A stretch of 64,000 nucleotides of DNA from Favolaschia claudopus (taxonomy: Eukaryota > Basidiomycota > Agaricomycetes > Agaricales > Mycenaceae), in NCBI GenBank assembly GCA_037176885.1, contig JAWWNJ010000049.1, positions 744,001 through 808,000 on the forward strand, given 5' to 3'. A program made the position numbers and the translations under genes. Below the pieces are notes generated by a model. That model searched no databases and had not been told where the DNA came from. It saw only the letters and a program-made list of their open reading frames with translations. Shown here in pieces: positions 11,461-62,745 of this stretch. Every line of letters begins with the position of its first letter. The stretch's first letter is position 1.

Positions 11461-13716
<2,256 letters not shown>

Positions 13717-37848: not shown

Positions 37849-38729
37849 ATGCGCTTTCAGTCATTAATACTTGTTTTTGCTGCCGTCGTCGCGGCCTCTG
37901 CTCAAGTCGAGGTGCGAAATCCAGATCCATTCATCTACTCAGTTCATGACTGACACTGGTTATAGCGCGCCGCCCCCGTGGTACGTCTCCACTCCTTGAT
38001 AACAAGCGTTCTTCCGACTGAGTGTTCGCGATCTAGTCCAATGGTGCACCTGGGTGGAAGCGGGATCCGTCTGGCCCTATCGCTGAAGATGGGGCTCCGG
38101 GATGGAAGAGAGATCCTTCTGGTCCTATCGCCGAAGATGGCGCACCTGGCTGGAAAAGAGAGAATTCCGACGGCGCGCCTACTTGGAAAAGAATCGTGAT
38201 TCCTCCCTCCGTACGTATCAGATCCTCATCAACAAGTTGTTCTCTAACCTTCATTGCGATTCAGAACGGTGCGCCCGGATGGAAGAGAGATCATTTTGGT
38301 CCTACTGTCGAAGATGGCGCACCTGGATGGAAGAGGGAGGACTCCGACGGGGCGCCGCCATGGAAAAGAATCGTGATTCCTCCTGTACGTCTCACATCCT
38401 CGTCAGCTGATCATTTTCTGACATTTCCGATGTAGTCCAACGGCGCGCCTGGATGGAAGAGGGATCCTTCTGCTCCCATCGCTGAAGACGGGGCACCCGG
38501 ATGGAAACGGGCGACTCCACCTCCCGGAGATGTTAGTATTTCGAGTTTTTCCTTCCTTCAATGACTTACATTCCCCCAGGCGCCGCCGGGGAAGAGGGAA
38601 CACCCCGGTATGAACAGGGCTGAGAGCCGCGCTGCCCGTGCTGTGAGTCCTTGTCGTCTTGTCCTACCATCCGCCATGCCGACTCCAGCTTAGAACGCAC
38701 GCAACGGCGACGGTGCACCTGGGTGGTAA
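37849..38729 (+). CDS. secreted Kex2-processed repeat-peptide precursor (KEP-type)
   Basis: Seven exons: 37849-37911, 37966-37980, 38037-38210, 38265-38384, 38436-38531, 38580-38642 and 38694-38729. All introns are phase 0, and the product is 188 aa. Residues 1-18 are a signal peptide (MRFQSLILVFAAVVAASA). The rest is a chain of units ending in Lys-Arg: ten KR sites, eight GAPGW cores, one GAPTW, one GAPPW and one degenerate DAPPG. Units include SNGAPGWKR, DPSGPIAEDGAPGWKR (twice identical), variants with DHFGPTVE and DPSAPIAE, ENSDGAPTWKR, EDSDGAPPWKR and IVIPPSNGAPGWKR (twice). The final copy, DGAPGW, is followed directly by the stop codon. This is the layout of precursors cut by Kex2 and trimmed of KR by a carboxypeptidase, as in alpha-factor and dikaritin (UstA-like) precursors. 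Expected products are 9- to 14-residue peptides ending in Trp. Function is unknown; a secreted signal or a RiPP are the main options. Confidence 0.9.
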
Positions 38730-39191: not shown

Positions 39192-39608
39192 ATGGCCGTC
39201 CAGCTCTTCAGTGAGGCTCTACCTTTTTTCTAGCCATCGTCGTGTCGTGCTTAACCCATTCCGAAAGCGTTTGCGAAATTCCGACCCGAAATGACTGCTC
39301 AGCAAAAGAAAGACGCGTATAGAACGGTGTACTTGCTTCTGGCTGCAGGGCTAGCGATTCCTGGATTTAAAGACTTCAAAGTCGGTCCCCCGTTGGACAA
39401 GAGAGGCACGAGAGGCTACGAGTTCGGTAAGTGGTCGACAATTTTTTGAGCTCCATCTGGTAAGATCGTAATTTTGCAGCACTGACTGTCGAGTTTGAGG
39501 ACATGAAGGCGTATAGGTGCGCTGCCTCAGAGGTTGTTCGGATTCCCAATTCAAAGAGCTGACATGGCCTCCAGCAATTATATTCCGCACGCACATCACA
39601 TTCTGTAG
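39192..39608 (+). CDS. Dabb-domain (stress-responsive alpha/beta-barrel) protein
   Basis: Four exons: 39192-39210, 39268-39426, 39480-39516 and 39575-39608. They give 82 aa: MAVQLFTFAKFRPEMTAQQK, LAAGLAIPGFKDFKVGPPLD, GYEFALTVEFEDMKAY and SNYIPHAHHIL. The pattern (beta strand with KF, helix, FKVGPP, FEFALTVEFED, then AY..YxxHxxH) is that of small dimeric Dabb proteins, some of which act as cyclases in polyketide pathways or in stress response. Family members usually run about 100 residues with one more strand. A strand-like VYQGVSIDFRI lies just downstream in another frame, so either the last exon is wrong or the C-terminus is frameshifted. It is 462 bp downstream of the peptide precursor on the same strand. 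Confidence 0.6.
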
Positions 39609-39841
39609 GTCGACACTTGTCTACCAAGGCGTCTCGATTGATTTTCGAATCATCAGTGTCTCCGAATTCATCAACGGCTTCTCAGAAGGCACACCTCTGG
39701 CGTACCAAATCGACACCACCCGAGTCGTGAAACTGTAGGAGAAAGCCCACCGCCTGCTATGGAACCCATAACTATCGTACACCGCATTCAATTCTACATA
39801 CACACACTATATCGGCCAGCATTATCGTACTCTAGCTCTGT

Positions 39842-41009
39842 CTATTTGTCGTCGATAGCTTCGAGCTCTTTTTTGCATCGATCGCATACACAATCGAAGT
39901 ACCAGTTCGCGGCGAGCTCCTTCCTTCTGTCCGTAACGGTGTCCTTTACGTCGATGTAGTTGGTGCAGAGTTCTTCGCCCGGCGCAATGTCTCTGGTCGC
40001 GAAGAAATGCAGTTCACGCCCCACGCGCTTCTTGCGAACGTTCGGCGCGCAGTCTGTTCCGGCATGAGCTTGCGTGAAGCAGTGAGATGCCAAAGACATA
40101 CCGTGATTGAAATACGAAGCTGGAATGGAAACACGCCATGAGCGACAACGGGCGAGCAATAAGCAATGGTTTCTGACCTGAGACGTACATGCACCATCCA
40201 AGCATCTCGCTGTCTCCCTCCTCATTCATCTCGTACATCCCGAACACATTGCCGGGGTCCCGAGCGAGGACCGCGCGCACTGTCTCGGACGTCGCTAGAT
40301 ACCCAGCAAGGGCTGGAACGTCAGTCAAGACGATGCGACGGATGAATGCGTAGACACGCAGGTTGGAGGGGAGTGCGTGAGGACGGGCGCGATAGAAGTG
40401 AAGCTCGTTATTTTGGAGCTCTAGAAGAGCTGGCCAAGAGTCCAGAGGCGAAGGCATGGTTGTCTGCGTTCCGGAATCCTCTGCGTGTCGCCTGATAATT
40501 GCGGACAAGACGAACCGGACGGTGTCTGATTCCATCTCACTGAGCGTAGGCAGCTGAGTCGCCGGGCTGTTTTCAGCAATGACCCACGCCTCATCGATGA
40601 AATCCTGAGTCAAGGATTCGACTTTGGGTATTTCAGTGAGTATCTGAGCACTGTCAGCAGCGACGGACCGCTGTTTCTTCCCCGCCATCTTGACCAATTT
40701 GTCGATAGCCGCATTCATCGCTGGCACGATCTCAGAGTTCTCCTCCCGAATCCAGCGATCTCGACAGCCTTCGCTGCAGAGCCAGATACCGGTCCCATTG
40801 TCCAGCTTGATGTTCCAGGCGTTGCGCCCCGCATCGAAGGCATAGGAAAAGCAAAGACCGCAGACCTCTTTGCGGAAGACGCGGTAGATGACTGAGGCGT
40901 ATGGGAAGGGACAGGTGTGAAGCAGGGTATCGTTCGAGATGGCTTGAGTAGCAAAGAGGCCTCTACCACCGTACCACGTAGCTTGGCGGCGGAAAAGATC
41001 AGATTCCAT
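39842..41009 (-). CDS. SET-domain protein (SMYD-like lysine methyltransferase family)
   Basis: Three exons: 41009-40178, 40119-40102 (18 nt) and 40053-39842. They give 353 aa. The N-terminal SET half has GGRGLFATQAISNDTLLHTC. A Cys cluster CGLCFSYAFD with WLCSEGC replaces the MYND finger seen in SMYD proteins. The C-terminal SET core reads SASYFNHDCAPNVR, the NHxCxPN cofactor and pseudoknot motif, here with Asp for the usual Ser, then IAPGEELCTNYID (GEEL plus catalytic Tyr) and the post-SET zinc cysteines FDCVCDRC. Members methylate lysines on histones or other proteins. All key residues are present. It ends 0.1 kb from the TFIIIC-type gene stop region on the same strand. Confidence 0.85.
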
Positions 41010-44514: not shown

Positions 44515-46161
44515 ATGGCCAAGACTGGGAAAAAACGAAAGCACAATAACGACCCATCTTCCAGTTCGCAAGCTTCAGCGTCGAAGAAGGCGAAGAAAGA
44601 CCTTGTAGTATCTGGGGAGGCTCAGTCTCCCACCGAAAATACGGCTGAGATCGGCAATCTCATCTACGCTGACGAACTTGAAACGACGACTGATACTCTG
44701 TGGACACTGGCAAAACACCCTCAACTCATCTCCTTGAAGTCTCTCAAAGCATTCCGTACCGCCGTTCATGACTATTGGCGTGTAGCCGCGGAAGTGTCCC
44801 ATACAGGTGCGTCTGTCTTGATATCGTCTTGTGCCGTACTCATGAGTCCTCGCCAGGCACATCGCTAACTTCCCGGATATCCTCAGCTCTAGTTGATCAG
44901 CGGCATGTTGATGCTCTGGTGCTGCTTTCAGAGATGGAGATACGCGGACACTTGCCGAAACTTGGCGCTCTGCAGAGATGGGTTCGCGAATGCGACGCTG
45001 TTCTAGCGCCATCTATGTCACAAGAGGAGGAAAACTTGGTGTGGCAGGTGCTGTGCGCCATCTTGCGGACGACTCAACCGGAATGCATCTCTTCCAGTCG
45101 CGATGATGATGGGATCTTGAAGTCAGGTAGTCGACTCCGATGGTATCCACCGTACACCCAACAGCCTTCAGCGTCACCCCCTTCTCCTCCTCGCGAGCTG
45201 GCTGCCTCCATTGGTTCATCTGTCCTGAAGTCTCTTCATATCACACCGGGGCCTGATAGACGTCCTCCAAACAAGCACCCGGCTGTTGTTTACTATTCTC
45301 CGCCGAATACGTTTCCTCTCCTATCTTCTGCAGACCGAACGCGGCAGCCCCAGCGTTTTGACGTTCCTGGTGTCCCCGGTAAGGCTCCCCCCCACCAACT
45401 CTGCATTCACGCTCAACTTCCCAGGGGCCTTCATCATCAACGATGTCTTCGAGGTCTCAGAATGCCGAGCGCTCATCGATGCAGCAGAGGCGGTGGGGAT
45501 GCTCCCTGACGAGCCCGTTGCCGGCTCAGCTGCACAACTTGCCTCCGTGCTAGCACACAACTTCATCTGGCTTGCTGACGCAGACTTCATCTCCACCTTG
45601 TACGACCGCGTCGTCCCGCATCTTCCTCCTGCCGTGCACGGTGGAGCCGTCAAGGGGATCAATCGACGATTCAGACTCTACCGCTACCGCCCAGGAGCCC
45701 TGTATCGACCTCATGTACGGCACTCATTGCCTGTCTCCCTTGTTTGCTTACCGCTCGCAGATTGACGGTGCATGGCCCGCATCAGCGCTAGACGAGACGT
45801 CTACCCCGCCTTCGTACATCTACGACTCGGACCCGACGGTCTACTCGCGGCTGACGTTCCTCATCTACCTCAACGACGACTTTGACGGCGGATGCACCAC
45901 ATTCTTCCTTCCTTCAGCCGAGCACGGCATCCTCGAGGCGCGTCCCGTCAAGCCCCGCACGGGCACCGTCTGTGTGTTCCCCCACGGCGCTGCGCAGGGC
46001 AGTCTATTGCACGAGGTAAGCGGCGAGGTCTGCTTTATACATTCTCTTGATTTACGCGTTTCCGGGGGATGTAGGGCAGCGGGGTCACCGAGGGGGCGAA
46101 GTATGTGATTCGCACCGAAGTTCTGTACGAGGTAGACAAGTCGGAACGTGTAGAGAGCTGA
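44515..46161 (+). CDS. prolyl-4-hydroxylase-like 2-oxoglutarate/Fe(II) oxygenase
   Basis: Five exons: 44515-44806, 44887-45378, 45425-45714, 45761-46015 and 46075-46161. They give 471 aa in continuous frame. The N-terminus is a basic, nuclear-localisation-like stretch (TGKKRKHNND, KKAKKD). The first half is helical and unassigned. The catalytic double-stranded beta-helix covers about 240-465: FPGAFIINDVFEVSEC region, RFRLYRYRPGALYRPHIDG with the metal HxD split by an intron, LTFLIYLNDDFDGGCTTFF, GTVCVFPHGAAQGSLLHEG with the distal His, and KYVIRTEVLYE with the 2-oxoglutarate Arg. The complete triad suggests an active P4H-type hydroxylase. No signal peptide, so a cytosolic or nuclear substrate is likely rather than collagen. 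Confidence 0.87.
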
Positions 46162-60377: not shown

Positions 60378-62745
60378 GGTGGTAACAGAACGAGTTAGGC
60401 ATCAATGCACTAAACTATATAGCGAAACCAGTCAAGACTGTTGGCGTCGGTGTCAAGGGCGGAGGAAGCGGGTGGCCCGTTTTGGAAGTTGGACCTCGGA
60501 GACCCTATGACTCAGCACAAAGCCTCAGTATTTTTTTTACGCATCAGTAATTCCCTCCAGGCTTTTGCACCGTCGTAACATCAAGTTGATCAACGCCCAT
60601 GGCCGGAGTCCAGGGAGCTATCACATGAATTCCCATTTTTTTTAATACCCAAATTGTCTGGTGATTCAGAATACAATCCCCCGTTCCATTGACACTCTTG
60701 CCATCTCGGTGCCGCCTAGGCTTTCTCTAAAAGACGCACAGCGACGGACTCGCGCCGTCTCTGATCACACTGAACTGGATTGGAGCGTTTGCCGGTGAAC
60801 CAGATGTGAGCTAAGGCAAGCCGAGCTTGCGAGGCGGCCTAAGTGGGAGGCAAGGAAGAGAGAAGCGGAAAAGGTATCCGATCATTATAGCCCATATGGG
60901 GCTGCTTGTATAGCCACCTCTGAGCTCCTGCTTTCTCCCTCGATCATCGTGAATTCGACGCGTTAATCCGACGCGTCGCCTCATATTTCTTGTTTCATTC
61001 TTCTGCTGCCTCAATTGTACTACTCTGCAACCACTTCGTGGCCCGTCAAGTCTTGTGCAAAGTCTTGTGTCAAGGCTCATTGCGTCCGAGTCCGCCGGCT
61101 TGAGGCCCTACTATTGCGGGTTGTCTAGAGAAATCTGGGACCATCTAGCTTGGAAGGATCAAGGGAGAAGCATAGAGCTCTACAACTGCGCTGGCGCAAT
61201 GGTTGGGCATGAGCATACTCCATGATGTTTAGGAAGGTGAGTTCTCTAATATGACCTTTGCCCCCATTTCCTTCCCTTTCTTCGGCTGATCGAGGCGGGA
61301 CTGCCGACCCAGCGATGCTAGTCGTCACTGATAAAGCGGGACCGCTGAGAGAAGTCGCGCATCGTGCGCATTTATTTCGGGGGTTTCTTTCCCCTCCTCA
61401 CCGGCGTTTGTATGGCTGGCAGGGGTTTGGAGGTCGCTCCTTCAGTTCCTGTTATGTTACACCTCGCCCGAGTCGTTGCCGCCGTCGCACACTCGCTTCA
61501 TCATCATCTGGCGCGTCGTTCGCCCGAGGCGTTGCCATCGTCGCACACTCGTATCATCATCACCTGGCGCGTCGTTCGCCCGAGGCGTTGCCATCGTCGC
61601 ACACTCGCATCATCATCATCTGGCGCATCGTTCGCCCGAGGCGTTGCCATCGTCGCACACTCGAATCCCCATCATCCGGCGCGTCGTTCGCCCGAGTCGT
61701 TGCCGCCGTTGCACACTCGCACCATCATTGGCGCTCACGTAGCTAGCATAGAATTTGGAGGGCCTCGCCATCTAATTTATGTTAAGTTACATGTCGTCCC
61801 GTCCCGTCTTGGATTGTCGCGTCGTACGCGCATCCAGTCGCACTTGTTACCTGCGTCAACGCCATTCGTAGCATGGGTTTGGAAGGTCGCGCCCTTCAAT
61901 CCATGTTCATGCGTCGCCTCGTTTTGTCGTACCTTGATTACATACATCCTCGAAGTATCGTGCTTAAACTTAAGCAGCTCAAGAGACATCGCAGTCTAAA
62001 GGGCCCCCCAGGGCCCAGTGTGCATTTGATTCGAGCTCCGGCAGTTGTGATAGGATCGGACAGATGAGCAGCAGCGTCCATCACGAGCTCCCATCCTCTG
62101 TGCTGTATGCCCGCGAACAAGTTGGGGCGGGCCTGTTGCGGTGCAATGTGTTTCCTCATCACCGTCCTTCGGGTCGATGCACGGGCAACGGTGGACTTCT
62201 AAGCCAAAGATGCCATCGGGTCCACCGTTCATCGTCGGTAACGGAACTCCTGCTGCCCATCGGGCGCCCTAGACGACGATTATATGCTCCCCGTTCACAT
62301 GGACTGTCGTGTCTATTTCTTCTGATCCTTACCGTGATGGATCTTGGATGGATCCGACAACTCTTCTTCGTCCCCTGGGTCAACAGATTGCTCGAAAACG
62401 AAACTCTGCGTGCAGGGAGAAGATATATGTCTGTTTAGACTAACACTAATTCACCCTCTGGCCTTGGAAGTGAGAGGATACCTGCTTTCTCCAAGTTGAA
62501 TTCAAGTTTTGCCCGAGGCTGTTGGTGGCGGCGCTGGAGGCTATTTTAAGTACCAGATGCTTCTCAGGCGAGCTCGAGTTGATTGGTCGGCGCTGCCTCT
62601 CTCGTTGTCGGGCCGTCCAACCTCCATGTGCGTTCACGCACGTTGTCACCGTTATGTACAACGTCCGGGTTTTAGCGGCGCTGAGCGCCCTTCATAAAAG
62701 GTGCTGTTCGGTTGGTGGTTCTCAAGCTTGCGAGTCTTCTCCCCA
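60378..62745. other. gene-poor region with a minisatellite, 2.4 kb
   Basis: No gene supported. The 56-bp tandem repeat at 61465-61732 keeps several frames open and produces long but meaningless ORFs of up to 211 codons. The rest shows nothing recognisable. Confidence 0.45.
61465..61732 (+). repeat. 56-bp minisatellite, about 4.8 copies
   Basis: Units start at 61465, 61521, 61577, 61633 and 61689, an exact 56-bp period, each beginning CGCCCGAG(T/G)CGTTGCC and containing CGCACACTCG and a CATCATCATC run. Copies differ at a few positions; the last is partial. The period is not a multiple of three, so a translated product would not be a simple repeat. Confidence 0.85.

Follow-up and report, generated by a model that had tools for sequence, protein, structure and literature searches.

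Trp-ended peptides released from KEX2-processed repeat proteins (KEPs) of Coprinopsis, Lentinula and Pleurotus have been detected by mass spectrometry, as given in passages of Vogt and colleagues (2022, PMC9769878). In these passages, GPPAPSW and DDDPEGPPAPSW were detected as products of the C-terminus of Coprinopsis KEP 447393, expression of Coprinopsis KEP 490115 in Pichia gave QYKAPSW, and many basidiomycete KEPs are stated to bear Ste13 motifs together with a C-terminal Trp. Synthetic KEP peptides had no antibacterial activity, and the function of mushroom KEP peptides is described there as largely unknown. Among the genomic surveys, Umemura 2020 counted 1680 basidiomycete KEPs (part of PMC7329392), and Le Marquer 2019 described Ste13 signatures and a conserved XSDW motif in KEPs of Basidiomycota (part of PMC6339444). 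The same part of the latter states that a conserved Tyr is essential for cyclisation in dikaritins and that basidiomycete sexual pheromones are a-type.

The gene described here lies in a 64,000-nucleotide stretch of Favolaschia claudopus DNA (the whole stretch analysed, hereafter the window). Its precursor is like Coprinopsis KEPs 447393 and 490115, Lentinula KEP 2599 and Pleurotus KEP 1091723, as these are characterised in passages of PMC9769878, in its dibasic-separated repeats and in its predicted secretion and linear Trp-ended products. The A-P-x-W end of GPPAPSW and QYKAPSW is common with the window precursor, which also has a C-terminal copy at the position from which the reported peptides of KEP 447393 derive. 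The window core is GAPGW, whereas the published KEPs have APSW or AADW, a comparison judged from published peptides and not from precursor sequences; the repeated Ste13 dipeptides reported in those passages for KEP 490115 and the Pleurotus KEPs are absent from the window precursor. GAPGW is absent as a string from the main texts of PMC9769878 and PMC7329392, as is APGW from the main-text passages of PMC6339444, and we found no literature treating Mycena, KEX2 and peptide together. As basidiomycete KEPs have been surveyed (PMC7329392, PMC6339444, both in part) and their Trp-ended peptides detected (PMC9769878, in part), a precursor of this kind is not new for mushrooms. The class is already published for Agaricomycetes, and the assignment of the present precursor, with its APxW core, as an additional KEP member is well supported. 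The precedents that an earlier, sequence-only reading of this DNA had named were ascomycete only, and were thus too narrow.

A more distant likeness concerns molluscan APGWamide. Amidation needs a Gly donor after the Trp, as in APGWG-KR. Molluscan APGWamide precursors contain many dibasic-separated tetrapeptide copies, APGW being the gastropod core, and their peptide is amidated, whereas KR comes directly after Trp in 9/9 internal Trp copies of the window precursor (molluscan data from part of PMC4200219). Since KR directly follows Trp, there is no Gly amide donor in the window, and we read the likeness as convergence. Mimicry of the molluscan hormone was rejected on the same grounds (free acid, no amide donor) and is retained only as a parallel.

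Structure of the precursor gene

The spliced ORF extends from the ATG at 37849 to the last stop base at 38729 and joins seven exons into one open frame of 188 aa (Table 1). The six GT-AG introns are 48-56 bases long, and 6/6 are in phase 0. Splicing bore out the arrangement given by the sequence-only reading: ten Lys-Arg sites, eight GAPGW copies with one GAPTW and one GAPPW, and a last GAPGW copy that terminates at the stop codon TAA. The precursor begins with MRFQSLILVFAAVVAASAQ. Judged by eye, this N-terminus is signal-peptide-like, with a basic beginning, a hydrophobic core and A-S-A ahead of Q, and it is resembled by MRLQSLILVFAAVVAASAQ in P0001 and MKFQSLLVVFAAMAAASAH in P0002. No Pfam family was returned for the precursor with an E cut-off of 0.01.

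The back-translated GAPGW-K-R pattern was found seven times in the window, 7/7 within the precursor gene, and in none of 100 dinucleotide shuffles; the eighth GAPGW, which precedes the stop and not KR, is missed by this pattern. Intron 5 interrupts an eleventh core copy, which has lost its Trp.

Table 1. Features of the precursor gene and its nearest neighbours (positions are those of the window)
Feature	Position	Strand	Remarks
TATA-box-like TATATAA	37793..37799	+	~50 bases 5' of ATG; read in the sequence, likeness to consensus only
Exon 1	37849..37911	+	signal-peptide-like MRFQSLILVFAAVVAASAQVE
Exon 2	37966..37980	+	RAAPV; residues identical in P0001
Exon 3	38037..38210	+	SNGAPGW-KR, DPSGPIAEDGAPGW-KR (two copies), ENSDGAPTW-KR, IVIPPS
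Exon 4	38265..38384	+	NGAPGW-KR, DHFGPTVEDGAPGW-KR, EDSDGAPPW-KR, IVIPP
Exon 5	38436..38531	+	SNGAPGW-KR, DPSAPIAEDGAPGW-KR, ATPPPGD
Decayed eleventh core copy	38529..38597	+	DAPPG-KR; DAPPW-KR in P0001
Exon 6	38580..38642	+	end of decayed core APPG-KR (APPW in P0001), then EHPGMNRAESRAARA
Non-repeat module EHPGMNRAESRAARA	38598..38642	+	continues as NARNGD in exon 7
Ala/Arg-rich non-repeat module HPGMNRAESRAARANAR	38598..38711	+	precedes last core copy
Exon 7	38694..38729	+	NARNGDGAPGW and stop; last core abuts stop codon
Small Dabb-domain protein	39291..39738	+	PF07876, E=1.1e-8; approximate model, introns removed by eye; between precursor and SET genes
SET-domain protein lysine methyltransferase (SET6-like)	39842..41009	-	1.1 kb downstream, other strand

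Predicted processing of the precursor

From its sequence, the gene is likely to encode a KEP from which linear peptides, with a free APxW at the C-terminus, would be secreted. The putative signal peptide would direct the precursor into the secretory pathway, where a Kex2-type protease would cleave after every Lys-Arg and a Kex1-type carboxypeptidase would strip the Lys-Arg. About ten linear peptides would be secreted, most of them with a free C-terminal G-A-P-x-W; ENSDGAPTW, EDSDGAPPW, IVIPPSNGAPGW and DPSGPIAEDGAPGW are examples. The predicted Trp-ended peptides are mostly of 9, 12 and 14 residues, in agreement with the range of 9-14 from the sequence-only reading, whose view of the gene as a basidiomycete Kex2-type repeat precursor is likewise supported. 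Kex1 is not required for the last copy, as it finishes at the stop, and this suggests that the mature peptides end in the free Trp. The APxW end may be the part recognised by a partner.

Basidiomycete mating pheromone precursors end in a CaaX box. As the window precursor has no Cys and its C-terminus is GAPGW, a CaaX mating pheromone was rejected. Our guess is that the peptides act as an extracellular signal or in biotic interactions, in a role other than that of a mating pheromone. A hormone role is unproven, because six Coprinopsis KEP knockouts gave no phenotype (passages of PMC9769878).

The layout of putative signal peptide and KR-separated copies is like that of ascomycete alpha-factor-type precursors. 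If the peptides were alpha-factor-like, a Ste13-type dipeptidyl aminopeptidase would, after Kex2 and Kex1, trim N-terminal X-Pro/X-Ala dipeptides and a seven-helix receptor would read the shorter signal. The peptide sequence itself looks to us unrelated to ascomycete alpha-factor, and the Ste13 signature is weak. The likeness to alpha-factor drawn in the sequence-only reading is partial: an X-Pro after the cut is present in 3/10 units (DP after KR), the remaining 7/10 begin with EN, IV, DH, ED, AT or EH, and X-Pro/X-Ala runs are absent from all units. Among the fragments of more than two residues in the 28-protein set described below, the second residue after the cut is Pro or Ala in 37/124. 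In favour of trimming, Ste13-trimmed Trp-ended peptides are reported for Coprinopsis KEP 490115 in Pichia, and the Pleurotus KEPs with detected Trp-ended peptides have Ste13 motifs (passages of PMC9769878). On this evidence we regard alpha-factor-like trimming of the window peptides as improbable.

The sequence-only reading had also allowed for a dikaritin-type RiPP. In such a case a UstY-type (DUF3328) oxidase with its gene nearby would cyclise the cores. The UstA-like layout, with its putative signal peptide and KR-separated repeats, is indeed shared. Ustiloxin and phomopsin cores, however, contain Tyr, and the precursor has neither Tyr nor Cys. HxxHC, the motif of DUF3328 oxidases, is usually doubled; a single isolated HxxHC was found in the six frames of the window, and none of the 48 frames scanned, out of 69 of at least 150 codons, gave a DUF3328 Pfam match. 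In favour of cyclisation, a DUF3328 gene is situated near 103 of the 1680 surveyed basidiomycete KEPs (part of PMC7329392), and a weak 2OG-Fe(II) oxygenase match in the window (see below) could represent some tailoring enzyme. A dikaritin-type product is very unlikely in our estimate.

Comparison with the deposited F. claudopus protein

The best match in the single-sequence search was the deposited F. claudopus protein P0001, which is identical to the window precursor at 160/168 positions outside one disturbed stretch. In this stretch P0001 has 30 residues in place of 20 and is out of the repeat frame; the flanking units are intact. Loss of frame in homologues, which the sequence-only reading had held would count against it, is therefore seen in this one place, with intact units on either side. 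Its sequence looks like a different frame of the window joined to part of intron 3, and may stem from a genuine indel, a fault of the assembly or an incorrect gene model. It counts against the KEP reading, as does the window copy that lacks Trp.

At the protein level, P0001 agrees with our model over 5/6 exon junctions. Judging from these differences, the window copy is probably distinct from the deposited P0001 allele. As 86.8% of BUSCO genes are duplicated in the F. claudopus assembly (from part of PMC10905254), the window copy could also be a second haplotype.

Relatives of the precursor in other Agaricales

With a threshold of E=10, the single-sequence search gave 13 proteins. A profile built from the window precursor and 11 of the single-sequence matches was scored against the 7997 candidates sharing most words and gave 27 proteins, 11 of them already in the profile; the scores of these members are high by construction, because those matches built the profile. 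Some members had scored weakly when the precursor alone was the query: Lyophyllum shimeji (E=0.016), Termitomyces J132 (E=0.018), M. epipterygia (E=0.22), M. crocata (E=1.0) and Leucocoprinus (E=1.3). For Lyophyllum and Leucocoprinus, weak singly, membership is based on the profile and the repeats that can be seen in them. Two of the 29 distinct matches, P0013 and P0028 (the latter named YcnI), were rejected as they have other Pfam domains and a chance GAPGW or APGWKR. The window precursor and the remaining 27 relatives form a 28-protein set that spans Favolaschia, Mycena and, with weaker matches, Termitomyces, Lyophyllum and Leucocoprinus, as well as four metagenome proteins. A scan of IMG/VR for relatives gave two stretches that fit the pattern and none that was confirmed; records near the Favolaschia genome were perhaps excluded from it.

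We cut the 28 proteins at dibasic sites and left out the first fragments. Of the 125 fragments obtained, 98 end in Trp, with Pro at -3 in 96/98 and Ala at -4 in 76/98; these counts are partly ascertained, because the relatives were found via core words. Some of the other 27 have no Trp end because KKR leaves a Lys. In 11/28 proteins, the window precursor included, a Trp stands at the stop.

The Ala/Arg module was tested against the 27 relatives and is matched in P0001, P0002, P0011 and P0014, where 0/500 shuffles were as good. These four relatives, three of them from Mycena, share the pattern M-x-R-A-[ED]-x-R-A-A-R. The match in Lyophyllum P0007 is borderline (8/500 shuffles), and P0003 (1/500) was not counted as a carrier since its alignment falls on its KR repeat. 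In the annotated M. polygramma P0014 the module lies close to the N-terminus, and its position relative to the repeats seems to have shifted.

Selection on the core and origin of the repeats

The number of differences among the repeats was counted over pairwise-summed sites. For the Gly-Ala-Pro-Trp codons of all 11 copies, we observed replacement differences at 21.5/493.3 sites versus silent differences at 109.5/166.7, a ratio of 0.066. With the ten Trp copies alone the figures are 0/405 and 90/135; the 11-copy ratio is the fairer one, because the ten Trp copies were chosen as core matches, which favours 0/405. Over all five core codons the ten Trp copies have 117.8 silent differences in 180 sites (~2/3). 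The five-codon ratio for all 11 copies, 0.184, is not far below the 0.26 of the four longer spacers, so that the case for constraint specific to the core depends on the four fixed positions.

Among the 15 intron pairs, introns 3 and 4 score highest, and 0/300 shuffles were as good; the shuffle test is not very specific, because introns 1 and 3 also reach 0/300. The likeness of introns 3 and 4, along with the matching units around them, suggests duplication of an exon plus its intron. As these introns are alike and all introns are in phase 0, the frame would survive the gain or loss of whole exon units.

A recent duplication of this kind could also mean that the array is decaying or non-functional, its frame and repeats being kept by recency and not by use. 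The copy without Trp and the out-of-frame stretch of P0001 would fit such decay. However, about two-thirds of the silent sites differ among the copies, Gly-Ala-Pro-Trp is altered only in the decayed copy, and the core is kept in other genera. We therefore consider a decaying array very unlikely.

Neighbouring genes and shared contigs

The SET protein encoded downstream of the precursor gene is identical to P0030 of F. claudopus at 328/368 aligned positions; 16 of the other 40 come from an intron retained in the model, outside which the identity is 328/352. Sixteen named species have a precursor-like match, and 10/16 also have a SET match at E up to 1e-30. In 5/10 of the species having both (F. 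claudopus, M. galopus, M. crocata, M. polygramma and Lyophyllum shimeji), the SET gene and one precursor-like match are on the same contig, contigs of equal length being taken as identical; the shared contigs are 1-3 Mb long, which means linkage and not adjacency. The remaining precursor-like matches of M. galopus, M. crocata and M. polygramma are on other contigs, and the other 5/10 species have no precursor-like match on the SET contig. The module carriers P0001, P0011 and P0014 are among the SET-linked proteins; the species of the fourth carrier, M. venus, has no SET match listed.

Mycena also has other-looking precursors (P0010, P0017, P0019-P0023, P0025-P0027 and P0029), with PPPW or APGW repeats, often ADAPGW-KK, and a non-Trp tail. 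In the species with a SET hit, none of these is on the SET contig. The split into a SET-linked type and this Mycena PPPW/ADAPGWKK type was made by eye.

A broader extension of the KEP reading is tentative, and we think it rather unlikely. The SET6-linked gene would predate the split of Mycenaceae and Lyophyllaceae and encode a non-mating peptide signal whose free APxW is read by a receptor; spacers and copy number would drift, and the Coprinopsis APSW peptides would belong to the same system. Drift of mushroom KEPs presumably makes their orthologues hard to recognise, and a neighbour shared in some species, combined with a nearly fixed APxW end, offers a handle for finding them. In other Agaricales, a search next to the SET gene could reveal the KEP gene, which is perhaps unannotated or misannotated there.

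Pfam scans in the window covered the above 48 of 69 open frames and two spliced proteins. Matches above the Pfam cut-offs were to PhzF, GST, TIM, TFIIIC zinc finger, aspartyl protease, PA14, Fn3-like, Dabb and phosphoesterase families, and the Pfam-matched families near the precursor gene are SET, Dabb, TFIIIC zinc finger, TIM, GST and PhzF. The occurrence of PA14 and Fn3-like together is suggestive of a GH3 enzyme. The 2OG-Fe(II) oxygenase match (45554-46105, + strand; E=0.00039) has 21.8 bits, below the 27-bit cut-off, and a weak NAD:arginine ADP-ribosyltransferase match at 12920-13441 (+ strand; E=0.0028) is also below its curated cut-off. A tandem array of a 56-base unit in 4.7 copies is present at 61464-61728.
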